From a virus, in the IMG/VR virus record IMGVR_UViG_3300036770_006092, positions 1-33,725 of that record: 33,725 nt of DNA. One strand, written 5' to 3'. The notes under the pieces are model-generated. The model was not told the DNA's origin. It did no database searches and saw only the letters and a program-made list of their open reading frames with translations. The position numbers and the translations under genes were made by a program. The first letter of the stretch is position 1, and every line of letters begins with the position of its first letter. Shown piece after piece: positions 1-33,725 of the stretch.

Positions 1-127
1 TAGTCTCGACGCTCAACCCCCCCATGTGTTGTCAGGAGCGATTGGCCATGTCACCCCGACCCATTGATCCGCGCTGCGCTGAGGCTGCGGCCCGCGCGTG
101 GCTGGTTGCCAACCCGACGCAGGGCCC
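1..127. repeat. Direct terminal repeat, left copy
   Basis: Bases 1-127 are identical to bases 33599-33725, which shows that the sequence closes into a circle of about 33,598 bp. The repeat carries the leader and first 80 bases of the small terminase gene. A length of exactly 127 matches a common assembler k-mer, so this is probably the overlap left when a circular or circularly permuted genome is linearised, rather than a biological terminal redundancy. Confidence 0.93.
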
Positions 128-650
128 GAATGCGGCGGTCACGGCGCTTGCTCCTGACCTGCTCGGCATCGAGCGACGCAGGGCGCAGGAGTCTGTGTCT
201 CGACTGCGGCGCAATCTGGTGGCCGAGGGCGTTTGCAAGCCGATCGGGCCCGGCCGCCAGCGGAGCGTGATGCCGCCCTCGCAGCCGCCGCCGCCCGATG
301 CAATCGAGCGGGACCTGTTGGCCCTGTCGCCGGCCGAGTCGATCGCGTGGACGATCAAGCGGCTGCGCCGGACGCTCGACGAGGCCGACCCCGGCAGCGC
401 GGCCTACGTCACGGCGGCGGGCCAGATGCAGAAGTGCCTCGACCGGTACCACGAGCTGCGCCGCGCCGAGGAGAAGCCCGCGCCCGGGCCGGCGGACCTG
501 TCCCCGGCCGAGTGGCGCGAGCAGCTCGGTGCGTCGGCCCGCGAGCTGGTCGACGTCGACCTCGAAGTGTACGTCGCCGAGTGGCTCGGGCGGAAGCGGC
601 TGCGGCTGGTGGCCCGGTCGGATGGGACGCTGGTGCTGGAGCGCGCGTGA
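48..650 (+). CDS. Terminase small subunit (probable)
   Basis: The predicted 200-residue protein probably recognises phage DNA and hands it to the large terminase for packaging. The assignment rests mainly on position, directly upstream of and overlapping the large terminase gene (GTGA overlap at 647-650), and on size. The N-terminal third (about residues 15-65) is helical and basic and could form a helix-turn-helix. A proline-rich linker follows near residues 75-88, then charged helices that could oligomerise. I prefer ATG 48 to the in-frame ATG 24 because AGGAG at 34-38 is correctly spaced for 48 and too close to 24. The gene crosses the circular join; its 5' part is repeated at 33646-33725. 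No family signature is strong enough to name a terminase subtype. Confidence 0.72.
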   Translation: MSPRPIDPRCAEAAARAWLVANPTQGPNAAVTALAPDLLGIERRRAQESVSRLRRNLVAEGVCKPIGPGRQRSVMPPSQPPPPDAIERDLLALSPAESIAWTIKRLRRTLDEADPGSAAYVTAAGQMQKCLDRYHELRRAEEKPAPGPADLSPAEWREQLGASARELVDVDLEVYVAEWLGRKRLRLVARSDGTLVLERA

Positions 651-16908: not shown

Positions 16909-17223
16909 ATGGCCGATCTCAACCTGGCGGGCGTCGCTGCCCCGTGGACCTGCTCTTTCGTCCCCGGCGCGTCCGGCCGACTGACCGTCGACCCGGTCCT
17001 CCACGGCGAGATCCACGTCTGGATCGCGTCCGGCATCACGATGGAGTACGGCGTGGCGGCCTCGGACCCGGGCGCCGCGGTGCTGCCGCTGCCCTCCGAG
17101 CAGTACGTGCGCGTCTGGGAGGCCCCGTCTGGCCTCTCGGCGCCCCTGTCGCGGTGCGAGCTGACCTTCGAGGAGACCGGCGGCACCAGCGGCGTCGTCT
17201 ACGTTCGCGTGGTCGCCCGATGA
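16909..17223 (+). CDS. Small beta-rich tail protein
   Basis: This 104-residue protein has an ATG preceded by CGGAGG at 16898-16903. It is predicted to be one small beta-sandwich (strands such as GEIHVWIASGITMEYGV and GVVYVRVVAR) with no charged motifs. It lies between the tail tip gene and the fibre-like gene and overlaps the latter by four bases (ATGA). It could be a tail-tip adaptor or a short fibre chaperone. I recognise no family. Confidence 0.55.
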   Translation: MADLNLAGVAAPWTCSFVPGASGRLTVDPVLHGEIHVWIASGITMEYGVAASDPGAAVLPLPSEQYVRVWEAPSGLSAPLSRCELTFEETGGTSGVVYVRVVAR

Positions 17224-18296
17224 AGCCCCGCCCGTCCAGTCTCTACTCGATGGGCGCGGCCGCGGGTGGTGGGTCGGTGCCGCCCGATCTGACGGCGCCC
17301 GCGACGCCCTCGCCGCAGGTGCTGTCGCCTGGCTCTACGTCGCTCAGCTCGACATTGGTCGGGTCGTGGTCGGCCTCTGTGACCGTCACTGCCTCGGTGA
17401 TCGCCTCCAGCGGTTCACCCCCGACGGCGACGGTCACCGGCTCGGGCGCGGGTCCGTACTCCGTCTCGATCGCGTCCGGGCTCGCCGATGGGCGGGTTTA
17501 CGCCGTCCGGCTTCGCGGGACCGGCGCGGACGGCCAGGTCGCCGACGTCGTGCTGTCCTTGGCCGTTGCCAACGCTACGAGCGTCACTGGTTCGATCAAC
17601 TGGGTGGTCGCCGCGGACTACGACTATACGCAAGTGGCGACCTCTTCGGCGGTCACCTCGCCGGGTACCGTCGCTTCCGGCAACGTGGCGCTGCCGGACC
17701 TCACCGCGGCGACAGATGCATCCGGGACGTGGAGCGTCACACCGACCAACGGCACCGGAATGGTGCTTTCCTCGACGAGCACCGCCCGCCCGTATGTCTA
17801 TTTTGTGCCGGACTGGACGGGGCTTGGGATCAACACCACGGGCCCTGAGGGCTACGCCGTCGAGGTGCAGATCTCGTCTCCGGTGCAGGCGTCCTCGTCA
17901 TTTTTCACCTTCTTCTTTGGCAGCGCGGCGAATCCAAACGGTAGCGGGTCAGGCAGCGGCGGCCGGTGCCTCAACACCGCGGGCACGCGAAACGTCATCG
18001 CGCGGTCCGTCTCGGCCGGCACCGCGGAGCTGGGGGCCACCATCGCCTCCCAGGCCTCCGACTTCGCCTCGCTGTCGTTCTTCGCGGCCGCCTTGCCCGG
18101 GGAGGTCATCGGGTCCGGCCTGGGGTCTGCTCTGCCTGCTGGCCCCGGGTCCTACACCTTCTATCGTGACGGCTACGCTCGCTCTCTGAGCACGGCCTGG
18201 GGCCTCTCCCCGGGCAACGTCGCGCTGCTCTTTGGTGGCGGCAACATCAGCGGCAACCTGACGCGCATTCGCATTTGGAAGCGGGGTGTCTCGTGA
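17220..18296 (+). CDS. Tail fibre or receptor-binding protein (probable)
   Basis: The 358-residue product is rich in Ser, Thr, Gly, Ala and Val and poor in charge, as tail fibres often are. Residues 30-115 form an Ig- or fibronectin-like beta domain (strand pairs around VTVTASVIASSG and VYAVRLRGTG). A linker and a larger C-terminal beta domain (about 120-355) follow, which may be a LamG-type sandwich. The gene lies last among the structural genes and before the lysis genes, the usual place for host-binding proteins. Its lower GC at some codons (for example AATCCAAACGG at 17932-17942) hints that the tip region has a different history. Confidence 0.6.
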   Translation: MKPRPSSLYSMGAAAGGGSVPPDLTAPATPSPQVLSPGSTSLSSTLVGSWSASVTVTASVIASSGSPPTATVTGSGAGPYSVSIASGLADGRVYAVRLRGTGADGQVADVVLSLAVANATSVTGSINWVVAADYDYTQVATSSAVTSPGTVASGNVALPDLTAATDASGTWSVTPTNGTGMVLSSTSTARPYVYFVPDWTGLGINTTGPEGYAVEVQISSPVQASSSFFTFFFGSAANPNGSGSGSGGRCLNTAGTRNVIARSVSAGTAELGATIASQASDFASLSFFAAALPGEVIGSGLGSALPAGPGSYTFYRDGYARSLSTAWGLSPGNVALLFGGGNISGNLTRIRIWKRGVS

Positions 18297-18502
18297 AGGT
18301 CAACGCTCGGGTGATCACCACTGAGACGCCGGCCGGCGACGACCCCCGCGCCGTCGTCGTGACGGTCGTGCTCTACGGAGACGAGGCCGACGACCTCGTC
18401 GCCGCTTACCGCCCGGGCCAGTCGCCCGAGATGCTCGCCGACCCGGCCCGCGTCGTCGCGGTGCCCGTCGCTGCCGCAGTCGCTGAGCTGGTGCGCCCGT
18501 GA
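18293..18502 (+). CDS. Small protein of unknown function
   Basis: This 69-residue acidic protein begins with GTG overlapping the fibre gene stop (GTGA) and itself overlaps the next gene. A strand (RAVVVTVVLYGDEADDLVAAY) and two short helices are predicted. I recognise no family. The run of four-base overlaps from 17220 to 19103 suggests one coupled translation unit including the lysis genes. Confidence 0.55.
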   Translation: MKVNARVITTETPAGDDPRAVVVTVVLYGDEADDLVAAYRPGQSPEMLADPARVVAVPVAAAVAELVRP

Positions 18503-18690
18503 AGCGCCTCAGCCGCACGACGCGCCGCAAGATCGCCCGCTTCCTCGGCCTCGTCGGCGTGTCCCTCGTCGACGGCAAGCTCACCCCGGCCGAGATCTCG
18601 ATGCTCGTCGGGTCTGCCGCGCAGGTCTACGAGGCCCTTCGCGCCGAGCGCGACGGCACGGCCCCGGCCGACGAGGCGGACGGCGAGTGA
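18499..18690 (+). CDS. Small basic protein in the lysis cassette
   Basis: The predicted protein has 63 residues. Its N-terminus is basic (KRLSRTTRRKIARFLG) and is followed by a short helix, DGKLTPAEISMLVGSAAQVY. The sequence DGKLTPAE resembles turns seen in small phage proteins next to endolysin genes. There is no clear transmembrane segment, so it is unlikely to be the holin. It starts at GTG 18499 within a GTGA overlap. Confidence 0.55.
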   Translation: MKRLSRTTRRKIARFLGLVGVSLVDGKLTPAEISMLVGSAAQVYEALRAERDGTAPADEADGE

Positions 18691-28914: not shown

Positions 28915-30698
28915 TCCCCCTCGCTCCCGGCCAGCGCCCCCGCGCGTGGCAGCTTGCCGCGACCGACGCGGCCCGCGCCGCGTTCCGGCAGGGCCTCCAG
29001 GCCGTGATCGTCTCCGCGGCGACGGGCACGGGCAAGGGCACGTTGCTCGCGGCCTGGGCGCGCTTGGCTGCCGCCCGAGGCCCTGTCCTTGTCCTCGTCC
29101 ATCGCGAGGAGCTGGTGATCGACCTCTACGAGCGCATCAAGGCCATCCCGGGGCCGCACTCGGTCGGCGTGGTCTGGGCCGCCAGGAACGAGATCCTCGC
29201 CGACATCGTCGTCGCGTCGGTGCAGTCCCTGCGCGGCCGGCTTGCTCAGCTCCGGGGCCCGCACCTCGTAATCACCGACGAATGCCACCATGCGCCGGCC
29301 CCGACCTACCGGGCGATCTACGAGCGCGTGGCCGAGCTGGTCCCGAAGTGGCGCCACCTCGGCATGACGGCCACGCCCTTCCGTTCGGCAGAGGGCGGCT
29401 CCACGACGGGCCTCGGCGACGTCTTTCAGGCCGTGGTCTACGAGCACGGGATCGGAGACGCGATCGCGGCGGGCGACCTCGTCCCGGTCCGCGGGATTCG
29501 CGTCGAGACCCAGCTCGACATCTCCGAGTGTCGGGTCGGCAAGTCCGGGGACTACGTCGAGGACGACCTGGCCCGGCTGGTCGACGTCGAGGCGCGCAAC
29601 TCGCTGATCGTCGACTACTACGAGCGCGAGGGCGCCGGCCGTCCGGCCCTGGTTTTCGCGGCCTCGGTGGAGCACGCGCAGCACCTGGCCGAGACCTTCC
29701 AGCGGCGCGGGCATGACTTCGCCGCGGTCTGGGGCGACATGCCGCGGGCCGACCGGAAGCGCATCGTCGGCGACTACCTCGCGGGGCGCACCTTGGGCCT
29801 CGTTTCGCGTGACCTGCTGTTCGAGGGCTTCGACGCGCCGCGCGCGAGCATCCTCCTCAAGGCCCGGCCGACCAAGTCCCGCGTCGTCTTCGTGCAGATG
29901 GTCGGACGGGGGCTCAGGTTGTTCCCGGGGAAAAGTGAGGCGCTCCTGCTCGACTTCGTGGACAACGGCTGCGACCTCGACCTCTCCAGCATTGCCGATC
30001 TCTCGCCGACTGCTGCGACGGCGGACAAGGCCGCCCGGACCTTCGTCGAGGGCGACCTCGTCGAGCACCGGACCCAGCCGCTCGGGCAGGGCATCGTCGA
30101 GGCCGTCGTCGAGGGCCCGCTTTACTGGGTGATGTGGTACGAGTCCGGGGACCGGGCCCTGCACGGCCCCGGCGACCTCATGCGGCCGCGCGCGGCCCGA
30201 CCCGAGGACGACGTCGACCGGGACGGCCTGCGGATCGCCCGCGTCGCCGATTACGAGGTGCTCCTGCTCCCCGGCGCGAAGACCCGGGACGCGGCCGGCT
30301 GGTACCACTACTCGGACGTCTGGACCGTCGGCGCCCGCGGGGAGGACGGGGCGCAGGCGACGGGCCTCGTCCGCCAGACCGGGCCCGATTGGTCGGCGTG
30401 GCTCGTCCGCCGCGGCGACGCCGAGCAGCTCGGACGCGCGCCGACGCGCGAGGCCGCCTGCCTCACGACCGAGACCGCCCTGCGGGCCCGGGGCCTGCGC
30501 TTCGGGCGGGTCGACGCCGAGTGGAAGGCCCAGGCGGCGACCGAGCGTCAGATCGCCGCCCTTCGCGCGTGGCGCATCCGCCGCGACCTCGACACGATCT
30601 CCAAAGGGGAGGCCAGCGCCCTCCTCGACGCGGTGGCGGCCCGGCGGACCGTCGCAGCGGCAATCCGAGACCTGTCCGCCCGTAGAGCAGCCGAATGA
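28911..30698 (+). CDS. SF2 DNA helicase
   Basis: The 595-residue product has all main SF2 motifs: Walker A SAATGTGKG (35-43), DECH at 123-126, TATP at 153-156, LLFEGFDAP at 302-310 and QMVGRGLRL at 329-337. The C-terminal 240 residues hold a small beta domain (VEGPLYWVMWYESG) and end in basic helices that may bind DNA. It resembles the RecG/UvrB-like and phage replicative SF2 helicases such as those encoded beside primase-polymerases. The start overlaps the methyltransferase stop. Confidence 0.88.
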   Translation: MIPLAPGQRPRAWQLAATDAARAAFRQGLQAVIVSAATGTGKGTLLAAWARLAAARGPVLVLVHREELVIDLYERIKAIPGPHSVGVVWAARNEILADIVVASVQSLRGRLAQLRGPHLVITDECHHAPAPTYRAIYERVAELVPKWRHLGMTATPFRSAEGGSTTGLGDVFQAVVYEHGIGDAIAAGDLVPVRGIRVETQLDISECRVGKSGDYVEDDLARLVDVEARNSLIVDYYEREGAGRPALVFAASVEHAQHLAETFQRRGHDFAAVWGDMPRADRKRIVGDYLAGRTLGLVSRDLLFEGFDAPRASILLKARPTKSRVVFVQMVGRGLRLFPGKSEALLLDFVDNGCDLDLSSIADLSPTAATADKAARTFVEGDLVEHRTQPLGQGIVEAVVEGPLYWVMWYESGDRALHGPGDLMRPRAARPEDDVDRDGLRIARVADYEVLLLPGAKTRDAAGWYHYSDVWTVGARGEDGAQATGLVRQTGPDWSAWLVRRGDAEQLGRAPTREAACLTTETALRARGLRFGRVDAEWKAQAATERQIAALRAWRIRRDLDTISKGEASALLDAVAARRTVAAAIRDLSARRAAE

Positions 30699-33211
30699 TG
30701 CCAAACCCTGTCCATCGGGCCGCCCGGCAGTATGCCGATCGCGGCTGGTCCGTCCTGCCCCTGCACTCGTTATCGCTGGACGGGGCCTGCACCTGCTCCC
30801 GCGGCGCCGACTGCGCGAGCCCGGGCAAGCACCCCCGCCTGGAGGACGGCGTCAAGGGCGCCAGCCGTGACCCGGTCGTGATCGACGGGTGGTGGGAGCG
30901 ATGGCCCGACGCGCACCTCGGCGTGGCCACTGGCGCGCCTTCGGGCGTCTGGGTCCTCGACGTGGACACAGGCGACGACGTCGACGGCGCCGCCGACCTG
31001 GCGCGACTGGAGGCCCAGCACGGGGCCCTGTCCGCGCTGCGGGCTCGGACCGGATCGGGCGGGCAGCACTTGTTCTTCGCGTTCGACGAGCGGGCCGCCG
31101 AGCTGCGCAACCGCGCGCGGCTCAAGATCGGCGGGGCGAAGACCGGCCTCGATGTCCGAGCGACGGGCGGGTACGTCGTCGCGGCGCCCTCGGGCCACGT
31201 CTCCGGGGGCCGCTACGAGTGGGTCCAGCGCCAGGTGCCCGAGCCCGCGCCGGGCTGGCTGCTCGATCTCCTGCTCGCGCCCGCGCCGGTCTCGCCGCCC
31301 TCTCTGCCCCTCCTCCCCTCGGCCCCGTCGGACGACCGTCAAGCGAAGTACCTCGCGCGGGTGCTGCAGGACCAGGCCGAGCGCATCCTGTCGGCGCCGG
31401 TCGGCGGCCGGCATCCGGCGATCGTCGCGGCCGCGCACAAGGTCGGGATGTACCTGCATCACTGGCCGACATTCGAGCAGGATGCTGTCGTGCTCGCGCT
31501 GATCGATGCGGCCTGCGCGGCCGGCAAGGACCGGGCCGACGCCGAGCGCGCGGTGCGGCAGATGGTCGCGGTCGGGCAGGGACATCCAAAGAGCATCGAC
31601 TGGAAGGCGCCGCCGTCCCGCGACGACGACGACGCGCCGCTGCCCGAGGAGCCCCCGCCGTTCGAGCAGGAGGCCCCGCGTCGCCCTCGCATCCTCGTCA
31701 CCGGTCGCCAGCTTCGCGAGGTCGTCGCGGACGCGTGGCGAGCCCTGGACAGAGCCAACCGGCCGACCCCGCGGCTCTACCGGCGCGGCGGTGCCCTCGT
31801 CGAGGTCCACCAGACCGAGCAGGGGCCGCGGATCGTCGCGGTCACGGCGAACGCTCTGCTCGGGCACCTTGCGGGGGCCGCCGACTGGATCAAGACCCGG
31901 CGGGCGCACGCTGGCGAGGCCACGGCGAGCCCCTTCGTCGAGGTCGACGCCGACCGTCCGCCGCAGGCCGTGGTCGACGTGCTGCTGTCGCAGCCCGACG
32001 AGCGCCTGCCCGTGCTGGAGGGCCTCGTCGCGGGGCCGGTCGTCGACGCGCAGGGCCGGATCGTCGATCGGCCTGGCTACTCCGACTCGGCCCGGGTGCT
32101 CTACGTCGGGGCGCCCCTCCAACTTGTCGAGGGGCCCGCGCCCGAAGCGGCCCGGCTCCTGCTCGATCACTGGCTGGGCGACTTTCCCTGGGCGTCGGAC
32201 TCGGACCGGGCTCATGCCCTGGCCCTGGTTCTGACCCCGTTCCTGCGGCGGCTCATCGCCGGGCCCTGCCCCGGTTTTCTCATCGAGGCCCCGACGCCGG
32301 GCTCGGGCAAGTCCCTGCTCGCCGAGCTGGCGGGGACCGTCGCCCTCGGCGCGGCGCCTCCCCCGACGCCGTTTGCTCGGCAAGAGGAGGAGCGGCGGAA
32401 GGCGCTCCTCTCGGCCCTGTCCTCGGGCCGGCCGATGATCCTGCTCGACAACGTGTCGGGGGCGGTCGCGGACAGCACCTTGGAGGGCATCCTCACGGCC
32501 TACCCCGCGTGGACCGACCGGGACCTCGGGCGCATCGCCGAGCTGACCGTGCCGGCCCTGTCGGTGTTCGCCCTCACGTCAAACAACGCGACCCTAAGCA
32601 CGGACATGGCCCGGCGGGTCTGTCGGATCCGACTCAACCCAGCGACCGATCGGCCCGGGGAGCGCAGCGGGTTCAGGATGCCCGATATTCGCGCCTGGAC
32701 GCGCGAGCACCGAGGGCTGCTGGTCTCGGCCGCCCTGAGCATCATCCGCGCTTGGATGGCCGCAGGGAGGCCCTACGACGGGGCCCGGCTGGGGTCCTTC
32801 GAGCGGTTCTCCGAGGTCGTGGGCGGCTGCCTCCAGGTGGCGCAGGTTCCGGGCTTCCTCGGCGATCGGGACGCGCTCTTTCGCGAGTCCGATCGGGAGG
32901 GCAGCGAGTGGGCTGAGTTCGTGTGTGGCTGGTGGGCCCGGACGCAGGAGCAGCACGTCGGCGCGGCCGAGCTGCTTGCGATGGCGGACGACGCGGGCCT
33001 GCTCACCTGGGCGACTGGGGATGGCAGCGACAAGGCCCGCGGGACGCGGCTTGGCATCGCACTTCGGAAGATGCGCGATCGGGTCTGGACGCTGCCCGGA
33101 GTGGGCCGGGTGACTCTCAGCGGGCCGCACATGTGGGAGGGCAGGTCGAGGTACCGGCTGCGGGCTCTGGACTCAGCCCGCGCGGGGCAGGTGGTGTCCC
33201 TGCATGTCTGA
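30695..33211 (+). CDS. Primase-polymerase fused to a P-loop ATPase
   Basis: This 838-residue protein has an N-terminal Prim-Pol domain (about residues 1-195). It shows GWSVLPL at 17-23, a possible zinc cluster CTCSRGADCASPGKHPR with Cys32, Cys34 and Cys40, LDVD at 88-91 (metal-binding Asp pair), SGGQH at 121-125 and a DVRATGGYVVAAPSGH block at 153-168. The C-terminal half has Walker A GSGKS at 536-540 and Walker B MILLD at 581-585, and should act as helicase or origin unwinder. It probably starts and extends DNA synthesis at the adjacent repeat array. ATG 30695 or 30698 both fit; the first overlaps the helicase stop. Confidence 0.88.
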   Translation: MMPNPVHRAARQYADRGWSVLPLHSLSLDGACTCSRGADCASPGKHPRLEDGVKGASRDPVVIDGWWERWPDAHLGVATGAPSGVWVLDVDTGDDVDGAADLARLEAQHGALSALRARTGSGGQHLFFAFDERAAELRNRARLKIGGAKTGLDVRATGGYVVAAPSGHVSGGRYEWVQRQVPEPAPGWLLDLLLAPAPVSPPSLPLLPSAPSDDRQAKYLARVLQDQAERILSAPVGGRHPAIVAAAHKVGMYLHHWPTFEQDAVVLALIDAACAAGKDRADAERAVRQMVAVGQGHPKSIDWKAPPSRDDDDAPLPEEPPPFEQEAPRRPRILVTGRQLREVVADAWRALDRANRPTPRLYRRGGALVEVHQTEQGPRIVAVTANALLGHLAGAADWIKTRRAHAGEATASPFVEVDADRPPQAVVDVLLSQPDERLPVLEGLVAGPVVDAQGRIVDRPGYSDSARVLYVGAPLQLVEGPAPEAARLLLDHWLGDFPWASDSDRAHALALVLTPFLRRLIAGPCPGFLIEAPTPGSGKSLLAELAGTVALGAAPPPTPFARQEEERRKALLSALSSGRPMILLDNVSGAVADSTLEGILTAYPAWTDRDLGRIAELTVPALSVFALTSNNATLSTDMARRVCRIRLNPATDRPGERSGFRMPDIRAWTREHRGLLVSAALSIIRAWMAAGRPYDGARLGSFERFSEVVGGCLQVAQVPGFLGDRDALFRESDREGSEWAEFVCGWWARTQEQHVGAAELLAMADDAGLLTWATGDGSDKARGTRLGIALRKMRDRVWTLPGVGRVTLSGPHMWEGRSRYRLRALDSARAGQVVSLHV

Positions 33212-33225
33212 CGTCCGCGCTTGTC

Positions 33226-33495
33226 GGTGGACCTCGGTGGACCTCGGTGGACCTCGTTTTAGAGGTCCACCGGGCACATTGACGAGCTTGCAGGCCGATA
33301 AAGTGGACCTCAAGGACCTCGGTGGACCTCGCCCTATCTTTATATGTGTGTGTGCAATCTGGACAAGTCCATTCCATCTACCTCTTAGAAGGTCCACCGA
33401 GGTCCACCGAGGTTCTATGAACGCGGGCCCTGTCCATGTTCTGAAAGAGTTCAGAGGTCCACCGGGCAGGGGTGGTAGGTCCACCGAGGTCCACC
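33226..33495. repeat. Iteron-like array of GGTGGACCTC
   Basis: Forward perfect copies start at 33226, 33236, 33246 and 33321; a forward copy with one mismatch starts at 33302. Inverted perfect copies (GAGGTCCACC) start at 33262, 33399, 33454 and 33486; inverted copies with one mismatch start at 33389 and 33476. Three of the forward copies are strictly tandem at a 10-bp period, one turn of the helix. A twelfth, one-mismatch copy lies at 27302-27311. Confidence 0.85.
33440..33455. repeat. Small hairpin within the array
   Basis: TCTGAA and TTCAGA form a perfect 6-bp stem around an AGAG loop, immediately left of the inverted copy at 33454. It is modest in strength and may be chance. Confidence 0.35.
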
Positions 33496-33509
33496 GGCCG
33501 GGCCGGGGT

Positions 33510-33531
33510 GGTGTCTACCTGCGTAGACACC
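33510..33531. repeat. Perfect 9-bp hairpin upstream of small terminase
   Basis: GGTGTCTAC and GTAGACACC flank a CTGC loop. It lies between the iteron-like array and the terminase leader. No T-run follows, so a structural or protein-binding role (packaging, origin) is as likely as termination of the replication operon. Confidence 0.55.
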
Positions 33532-33563
33532 CCTACCGGCAGGGGCCGGGCATGATGACCCCT

Positions 33564-33589
33564 CCCCCCCGGGGGGCGGGGTACCCCCC
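33564..33589. repeat. G/C-tract hairpin near the circular join
   Basis: A run of seven C, six G, CGGGGTA and six C can fold several ways, including a 6-bp all-GC stem from 33571-33576 to 33584-33589 with a seven-base loop. It contains a GGGGTACCCC palindrome. It lies about 60 bases before the small terminase start. Confidence 0.5.
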
Positions 33590-33598
33590 GAGGTGGCG

Positions 33599-33725
33599 TA
33601 GTCTCGACGCTCAACCCCCCCATGTGTTGTCAGGAGCGATTGGCCATGTCACCCCGACCCATTGATCCGCGCTGCGCTGAGGCTGCGGCCCGCGCGTGGC
33701 TGGTTGCCAACCCGACGCAGGGCCC
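33599..33725. repeat. Direct terminal repeat, right copy
   Basis: This is the second copy of bases 1-127 and marks circular closure. Features within it should be counted once. Confidence 0.93.
33646..33725 (+). CDS. Small terminase, 5' part (same gene as 48-650)
   Basis: These 80 bases are the start of the small terminase gene, cut by the window end. It is not a second gene; it is the repeated copy created by linearising a circular sequence. The ribosome site AGGAG is at 33632-33636, inside the window, with the leader continuous from the origin region. Confidence 0.9.
   Translation, partial: MSPRPIDPRCAEAAARAWLVANPTQG

Follow-up and report, generated by a model that had tools for sequence, protein, structure and literature searches.

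We examined, at 33226-33495 of the window (the whole 33,725-nt stretch analysed, IMG/VR record IMGVR_UViG_3300036770_006092), an array of short repeats that we regard, with a probability of about 93%, as the replication origin of this phage, and whose iterons, as predicted from comparative sequence evidence, the adjacent primase-polymerase/helicase would read through its winged-helix-like domain at the C terminus. The sequence-only reading had named an origin as one possibility, and this is strongly supported by the constant pairing of array and helicase and by the co-variation of the repeated word with the domain. The window is a single circularised virus contig, at which positions 33599-33725 repeat positions 1-127 exactly (127 bases). 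GC skew along it showed no clear inflection and was uninformative, and no match was returned by a nucleotide search of phage records, an exact 20-mer scan of viral contigs, phmmer against PDB sequences or an NCBIfam search. The coordinates of the features are collected in Table 1.

Table 1. Features of the putative origin region, the initiator gene and the probable cos region (positions in the window)
Feature	Position	Strand	Basis or remark
Initiator gene, 838 aa, prim-pol/D5-type helicase	30695..33211	+	PF09250, PHROG primase/helicase families, AF2 and Foldseek
Predicted DNA-binding domain (aa 734-824)	32894..33166	+	changes along with the iteron word; L005 comparison, AF2
Predicted recognition helix (aa 779-792)	33029..33070	+	residues 780, 784 and 788 show the strongest co-variation with bases 5, 6 and 7 of the iteron
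Predicted wing tip (aa 815-816)	33137..33142	+	strongest co-variation with base 2 of the iteron
Three tandem forward iterons, period 10	33226..33255	+	
Lone inverted iteron of the left set	33262..33271	-	
Core-proximal forward iterons (33302 one mismatch, 33321 perfect)	33302..33330	+	corresponds to the three forward copies conserved in relatives
Core between the convergent inner iterons, presumed melting site	33332..33388	.	conserved in L005
Alternating purine-pyrimidine tract TATATGTGTGTGTGCA, 16 bp	33341..33356	.	one of the three longest such runs of the window
Core-proximal inverted iterons (33389, 33399)	33389..33408	-	degenerate third copy directly after
Outer inverted iterons (33454, 33476, 33486)	33454..33495	-	
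Block identical in window and L005	33514..33602	.	bounds the diverged cassette on the right; the probable cos site forms the end of the block
Probable cosN GTGGCGTAGT between CGAG/CTCG arms	33593..33602 (and 1-4)	.	both contigs break within a few bases
Putative small-terminase gene	48-650		start repeated at 33647

The recount with the element GGTGGACCTC agreed with the eleven copies in 270 bases, eight of them perfect, that had been noted before. The array holds exactly 11 copies, at which the perfect ones start at 33226, 33236, 33246 and 33321 on the forward strand and at 33262, 33399, 33454 and 33486 on the reverse strand, while the three with one mismatch start at 33302 (forward), 33389 and 33476 (both inverted). 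The convergent layout that had been described also stood, with all copies to the right of the core inverted and one inverted copy on the left, although the forward copies on the left number five and not four. In the register CGGTGGACCT, 10 perfect copies were found within the array and 0 elsewhere in the window. The commonest 10-mer occurs 10 times in the array; in 2000 Markov shuffles of this region no 10-mer exceeded 4 copies, and other 300-bp stretches of the window contained at most 3 copies of any 10-mer.

The gene that ends with the stop codon at 33211, just before the array, had been called a primase-polymerase gene, and this was borne out by its Prim-Pol domain (aa 10-188; PF09250, E 6e-41). 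The primase is fused to a D5-type AAA+ helicase (about aa 334-733), which is followed by a predicted winged-helix-like DNA-binding domain (aa 734-824). The AF2 model of the protein (pLDDT 85) retrieved AsfvPrimPol, SaPI5 Rep (7OLA, 7PDS), NrS-1 and poxvirus E5/D5 in Foldseek, with E values of 1e-8 to 1e-5 for AsfvPrimPol, 7OLA and NrS-1. The DNA-binding domain was modelled (pLDDT 88) with the topology H-H-H-beta-wing and a two-stranded wing, which fits a winged-helix fold; its comparison with the PDB gave no significant match, and many of the best, weak ones were winged-helix proteins. In the model, residues 780, 784 and 788 lie one turn apart on a single face of the predicted recognition helix, and residues 815/816 form the wing tip.

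One close relative, IMGVR_UViG_3300035187_003732 (here L005), was found, and it offers what may be a natural switch of specificity. Over most of the genome the two phages are about 94-95% identical. The L005 array has the layout and core of that in the window and an identical right flank, but GTGGACCT, the form in the window, is replaced by GTGGACGT in each full copy. Their initiators are 99% identical in the helicase and only about 73% in the C-terminal domain, with 26 residue changes in aa 742-838 compared to at most 4 in aa 201-741; residue 788 is I in the window and L in L005, and iteron base 7 is C and G, respectively. Since the diverged stretch of the gene also shows more synonymous changes, block recombination explains part of this pattern. 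Further diverged stretches were detected in the tail region, in accessory genes and at the N terminus of the putative small terminase; at 17201-18600, in a probable tail or receptor-binding gene (a function suggested by position), identity falls to about 45-50%. A 153-aa frame at 33204-33665, which overlaps the initiator stop (ATGTCTGA), is open through the array and cos region in both phages; we considered it as a gene and took it as probably spurious.

To place the array in a wider context, an alignment of seven helicases, without use of the array, was scanned against viral contigs and yielded 80 loci. In 78 of them (77 under another counting of cut contigs) the densest 9-mer cluster was located where the helicase homology ends or shortly beyond, the exceptions being two contigs cut there and L020, at which the densest repeat cluster is upstream. 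Among 80 loci from bacterial genome assemblies, an array was present in 60, one locus was cut and no adjacent array was detectable in 19; the two sets, 160 loci in all, overlap in a few contigs. Helicase relatives from Planctomycetota and Myxococcales (L096, L097, L098, L119 and L131) have different C-terminal ends and no detectable adjacent array, and may use another origin type. Beside the more distant helicases of phiAsp2, DSS3_MAL1, RBC11 and JackieB no arrays were seen. A distant archaeal-virus homologue (26% identity) has an AT-rich core immediately 3′ of its gene, surrounded by 8 exact copies of TGCGGGTAT in both orientations. Contigs of the relatives were assigned to Alphaproteobacteria, Acidobacteria, Myxococcota and others.

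The usual layout in the family is two forward copies, one inverted, three forward, the core, three inverted, two forward and two inverted, and the window array retains its inner convergent part. At least 25 different 8-bp words were found (25 in 47 non-redundant loci, the word register being picked by eye for some loci), nearly all of which fit GNGNNNNT.

The core of the window is 57% AT compared to 28% for the genome, so that the AT-rich core described earlier holds for this phage, but the more general property is a run of alternating purines and pyrimidines. Such a run of at least 16 bp was present in 60 of 83 distinct related cores, and the median run length of all cores was 23, compared to 6-8 in shuffles and 6 in other stretches of the same loci. 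The cores of GC-rich relatives consist mainly of alternating purines and pyrimidines, and their AT content often barely exceeds that of the locus. We therefore dropped the plain AT-rich label for the whole family, as its cores are typically alternating. The tract of the window alternates in L005 too, where it lies outside the initiator frame. Alternating purine-pyrimidine tracts are prone to form Z-DNA, and we infer that the alternating core has a part in origin opening.

In the window the initiator stops before the array, whereas in most relatives its reading frame passes through the array and ends beyond it. Across 42 such in-gene loci, the gene frame of the arrays had 0 stops and the two remaining forward frames had 92 and 158, a difference that is partly by construction as an open frame was the basis for choosing the loci. 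The independent evidence is the spacing and a conserved peptide: the distance between tandem copies in the in-gene loci was 9 or 12 bp for 137 of 149, and many relatives continue, in frame, into a C-terminal peptide with P-x-W-L after the array (e.g. PDWLRELDP). The spacing is mostly 10 in the window, L005 and L016, which have array and gene largely apart. In L026 and other relatives a conserved P[DA]WL[RKDE]E[LV] peptide directly follows the in-gene array, and it is possibly a protein-interaction tail.

The word and the C-terminal domain change together across the family. With helicase similarity controlled, word distance and divergence of the domain gave a partial r of -0.44, and 0 of 2000 permutations were as strong. 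Pairs more than 85% identical in the helicase had a DNA-binding domain identity of 0.80 with the same word and 0.56 with different words. In 31 disjoint close pairs, a test that reuses the viral loci from which the residue rules came, domain identity was 0.64 for different words (n 27) and 0.84 for the same word (n 4), with both groups at an equal helicase identity of 0.89 (p 1.3e-4). Where the members of a close pair have different words, their DNA differs mostly in the domain and the array, with conserved sequence on either side.

At the level of single residues, the best of 483 residues per base were 815 (base 2), 780 (base 5), 784 (base 6) and 788 (base 7), with p-values that are borderline after correction for 483 residues and several bases; base 4 gave no signal from the DNA-binding domain. 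Residue rules derived from the viral loci gained little elsewhere over the commonest base, with 26/29 for base 6 (baseline 22), 26/29 for base 5 (baseline 25) and 20/26 for base 2. For base 7, a rule based on residue 781 failed outside the viral loci (only 16/29), and residue 788 is the better candidate.

A packaging recognition site had also been named as a possibility, and a rival reading takes the array as a cosB-like site of this kind, bound by the small terminase, and not as an origin. A probable cos site does lie about 100 bp to the right of the array: there the window contig and that of L005, which is independent of it, have starts no more than 6 bases apart, and L005 has a 10-bp terminal repeat, GTGGCGTAGT. 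The gene that had been called the small terminase stands just before a large-terminase candidate (phrog_2, a weak match, E 1.4e-5), but the name rests on this position, as it matched no family model. Its N-terminal ~70 residues (48-257) are strongly diverged between window and L005, with about 30 changes compared to one or two in the rest of the protein, and L016, a full-length relative, also has a downstream terminase large-subunit gene. However, the array lies inside the helicase gene in most relatives and follows it even where no terminase is next, the following genes being resolvase- or methyltransferase-like in L132 (a Paracoccus prophage) and HNH in L103, and the co-variation falls, down to single residues, in the C-terminal domain of the helicase. 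We thus consider packaging recognition in place of an origin to be very improbable. In the block identical in both phages, at 33512-33602, a GTGTCTACCTGCGTAGACAC palindrome and G/C-rich inverted repeats were also observed, which are candidates for an operator, a terminator or a cos flank.

A double role in the lineage of the window, at which the origin serves also as a packaging enhancer or an auto-regulatory operator, is compatible with the origin reading and seems to us unlikely rather than implausible. It would suit the placement of the array between initiator, cos and terminase, and the diverged stretches of window and L005 include both the array and the terminase N terminus; yet the terminase divergence is set apart from the array by the identical block and may simply belong to one recombined segment. 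That the array is a selfish or neutral tandem repeat, or an array of transcription-factor operators unrelated to replication, is hardly credible. Repeats homogenise easily and the array is partly tandem, but a mixed-orientation layout with a special core is conserved in many loci of several phyla, the in-gene arrays are under the coding-phase constraint given above, and the array co-varies with the DNA-binding domain of the initiator.

Taking the array as the origin, the C-terminal winged-helix-like domain would recognise the 8-bp core G-T-G-G-A-C-C-T of each iteron, the two iteron sets would load two oppositely facing helicase rings, the alternating purine-pyrimidine core would give way as the unwinding site and the Prim-Pol domain would then prime synthesis. 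The DNA-binding domain and the array behave as a single specificity cassette, exchanged or evolving together, with the helicase and flanks nearly constant. We also think it probable that this represents a widespread family of phage and prophage origins, with domain and origin as an exchangeable cassette, at least 25 words (nearly all GNGNNNNT), reading by residues 780/784/788 and 815/816, a mostly in-gene position with spacing in multiples of a codon, and a conserved, Z-prone core of alternating purines and pyrimidines.

The earlier remark that no named phage origin has this layout needs amending, since in SaPI/PICI origins an AT-rich region with a set of iterons on each side lies immediately 3′ of the initiator gene (PMC6092414, PMC7581432), and SaPI Rep and Cch2 use the C-terminal domain to bind iterons that lie downstream of the respective genes (PMC7581432). 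The likeness to these origins with Rep (PriRep1) extends to the D5-type helicase/initiator 5′ of the origin, the two sets of short iterons around a core, the Foldseek match to SaPI5 Rep and, as predicted here for the window phage, reading by the C-terminal domain. As in SaPI/PICI origins, the array of the window immediately follows the initiator (33226 after the stop at 33211, likewise in L005), and its two iteron sets flank an AT-rich region. The window phage differs in its Prim-Pol N terminus and the typically alternating core, and most relatives in having the array inside the gene. As the 33.7-kb circular genome has its own large-terminase, tape-measure and endolysin candidates, it is not a PICI, though its origin would work like one.

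Other systems share single features. The iterons of lambda are inside its initiator gene O, beside an AT-rich region (PMC7466680), and in this most relatives of the window phage resemble it. The lambda origin differs in its four to six iterons beside the AT-rich region and in its protein, which is unrelated and is not a helicase; in the window itself the array stands outside the initiator gene. The archaeal plasmid pRN1 has the same domain order of Prim-Pol, SF3 helicase and winged helix, with an essential origin directly downstream of the gene, but this is a stem-loop of ~100 nt, stated to lack iteron structure (PMC4234260). At the putative origin of SCCmec Cch2, a D5-type helicase binds short downstream repeats via its C-terminal domain (PMC7581432), but there are only three 5-nt iterons and the primase is separate. 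Close relatives among geminiviruses have different iterons, each paired with its own Rep (PMC12548392), although these are unrelated single-stranded DNA viruses with another initiator type and with iterons upstream of the Rep gene. Within the open-access literature, the wide occurrence of SaPI/PICI-like origins in phages, their in-gene position and a readable recognition code appear to be new, and an earlier description elsewhere is possible.

The natural pairs of word and domain offer a direct test of how the specificity of an initiator shifts while every copy of its site changes. Their number suggests diversifying pressure on origin specificity, which may arise from competition with co-infecting phages or satellites. 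The array also provides an annotation of origin and initiator for many uncharacterised phages, and the family may supply a set of mutually non-cross-reacting replicons for little-studied bacteria.
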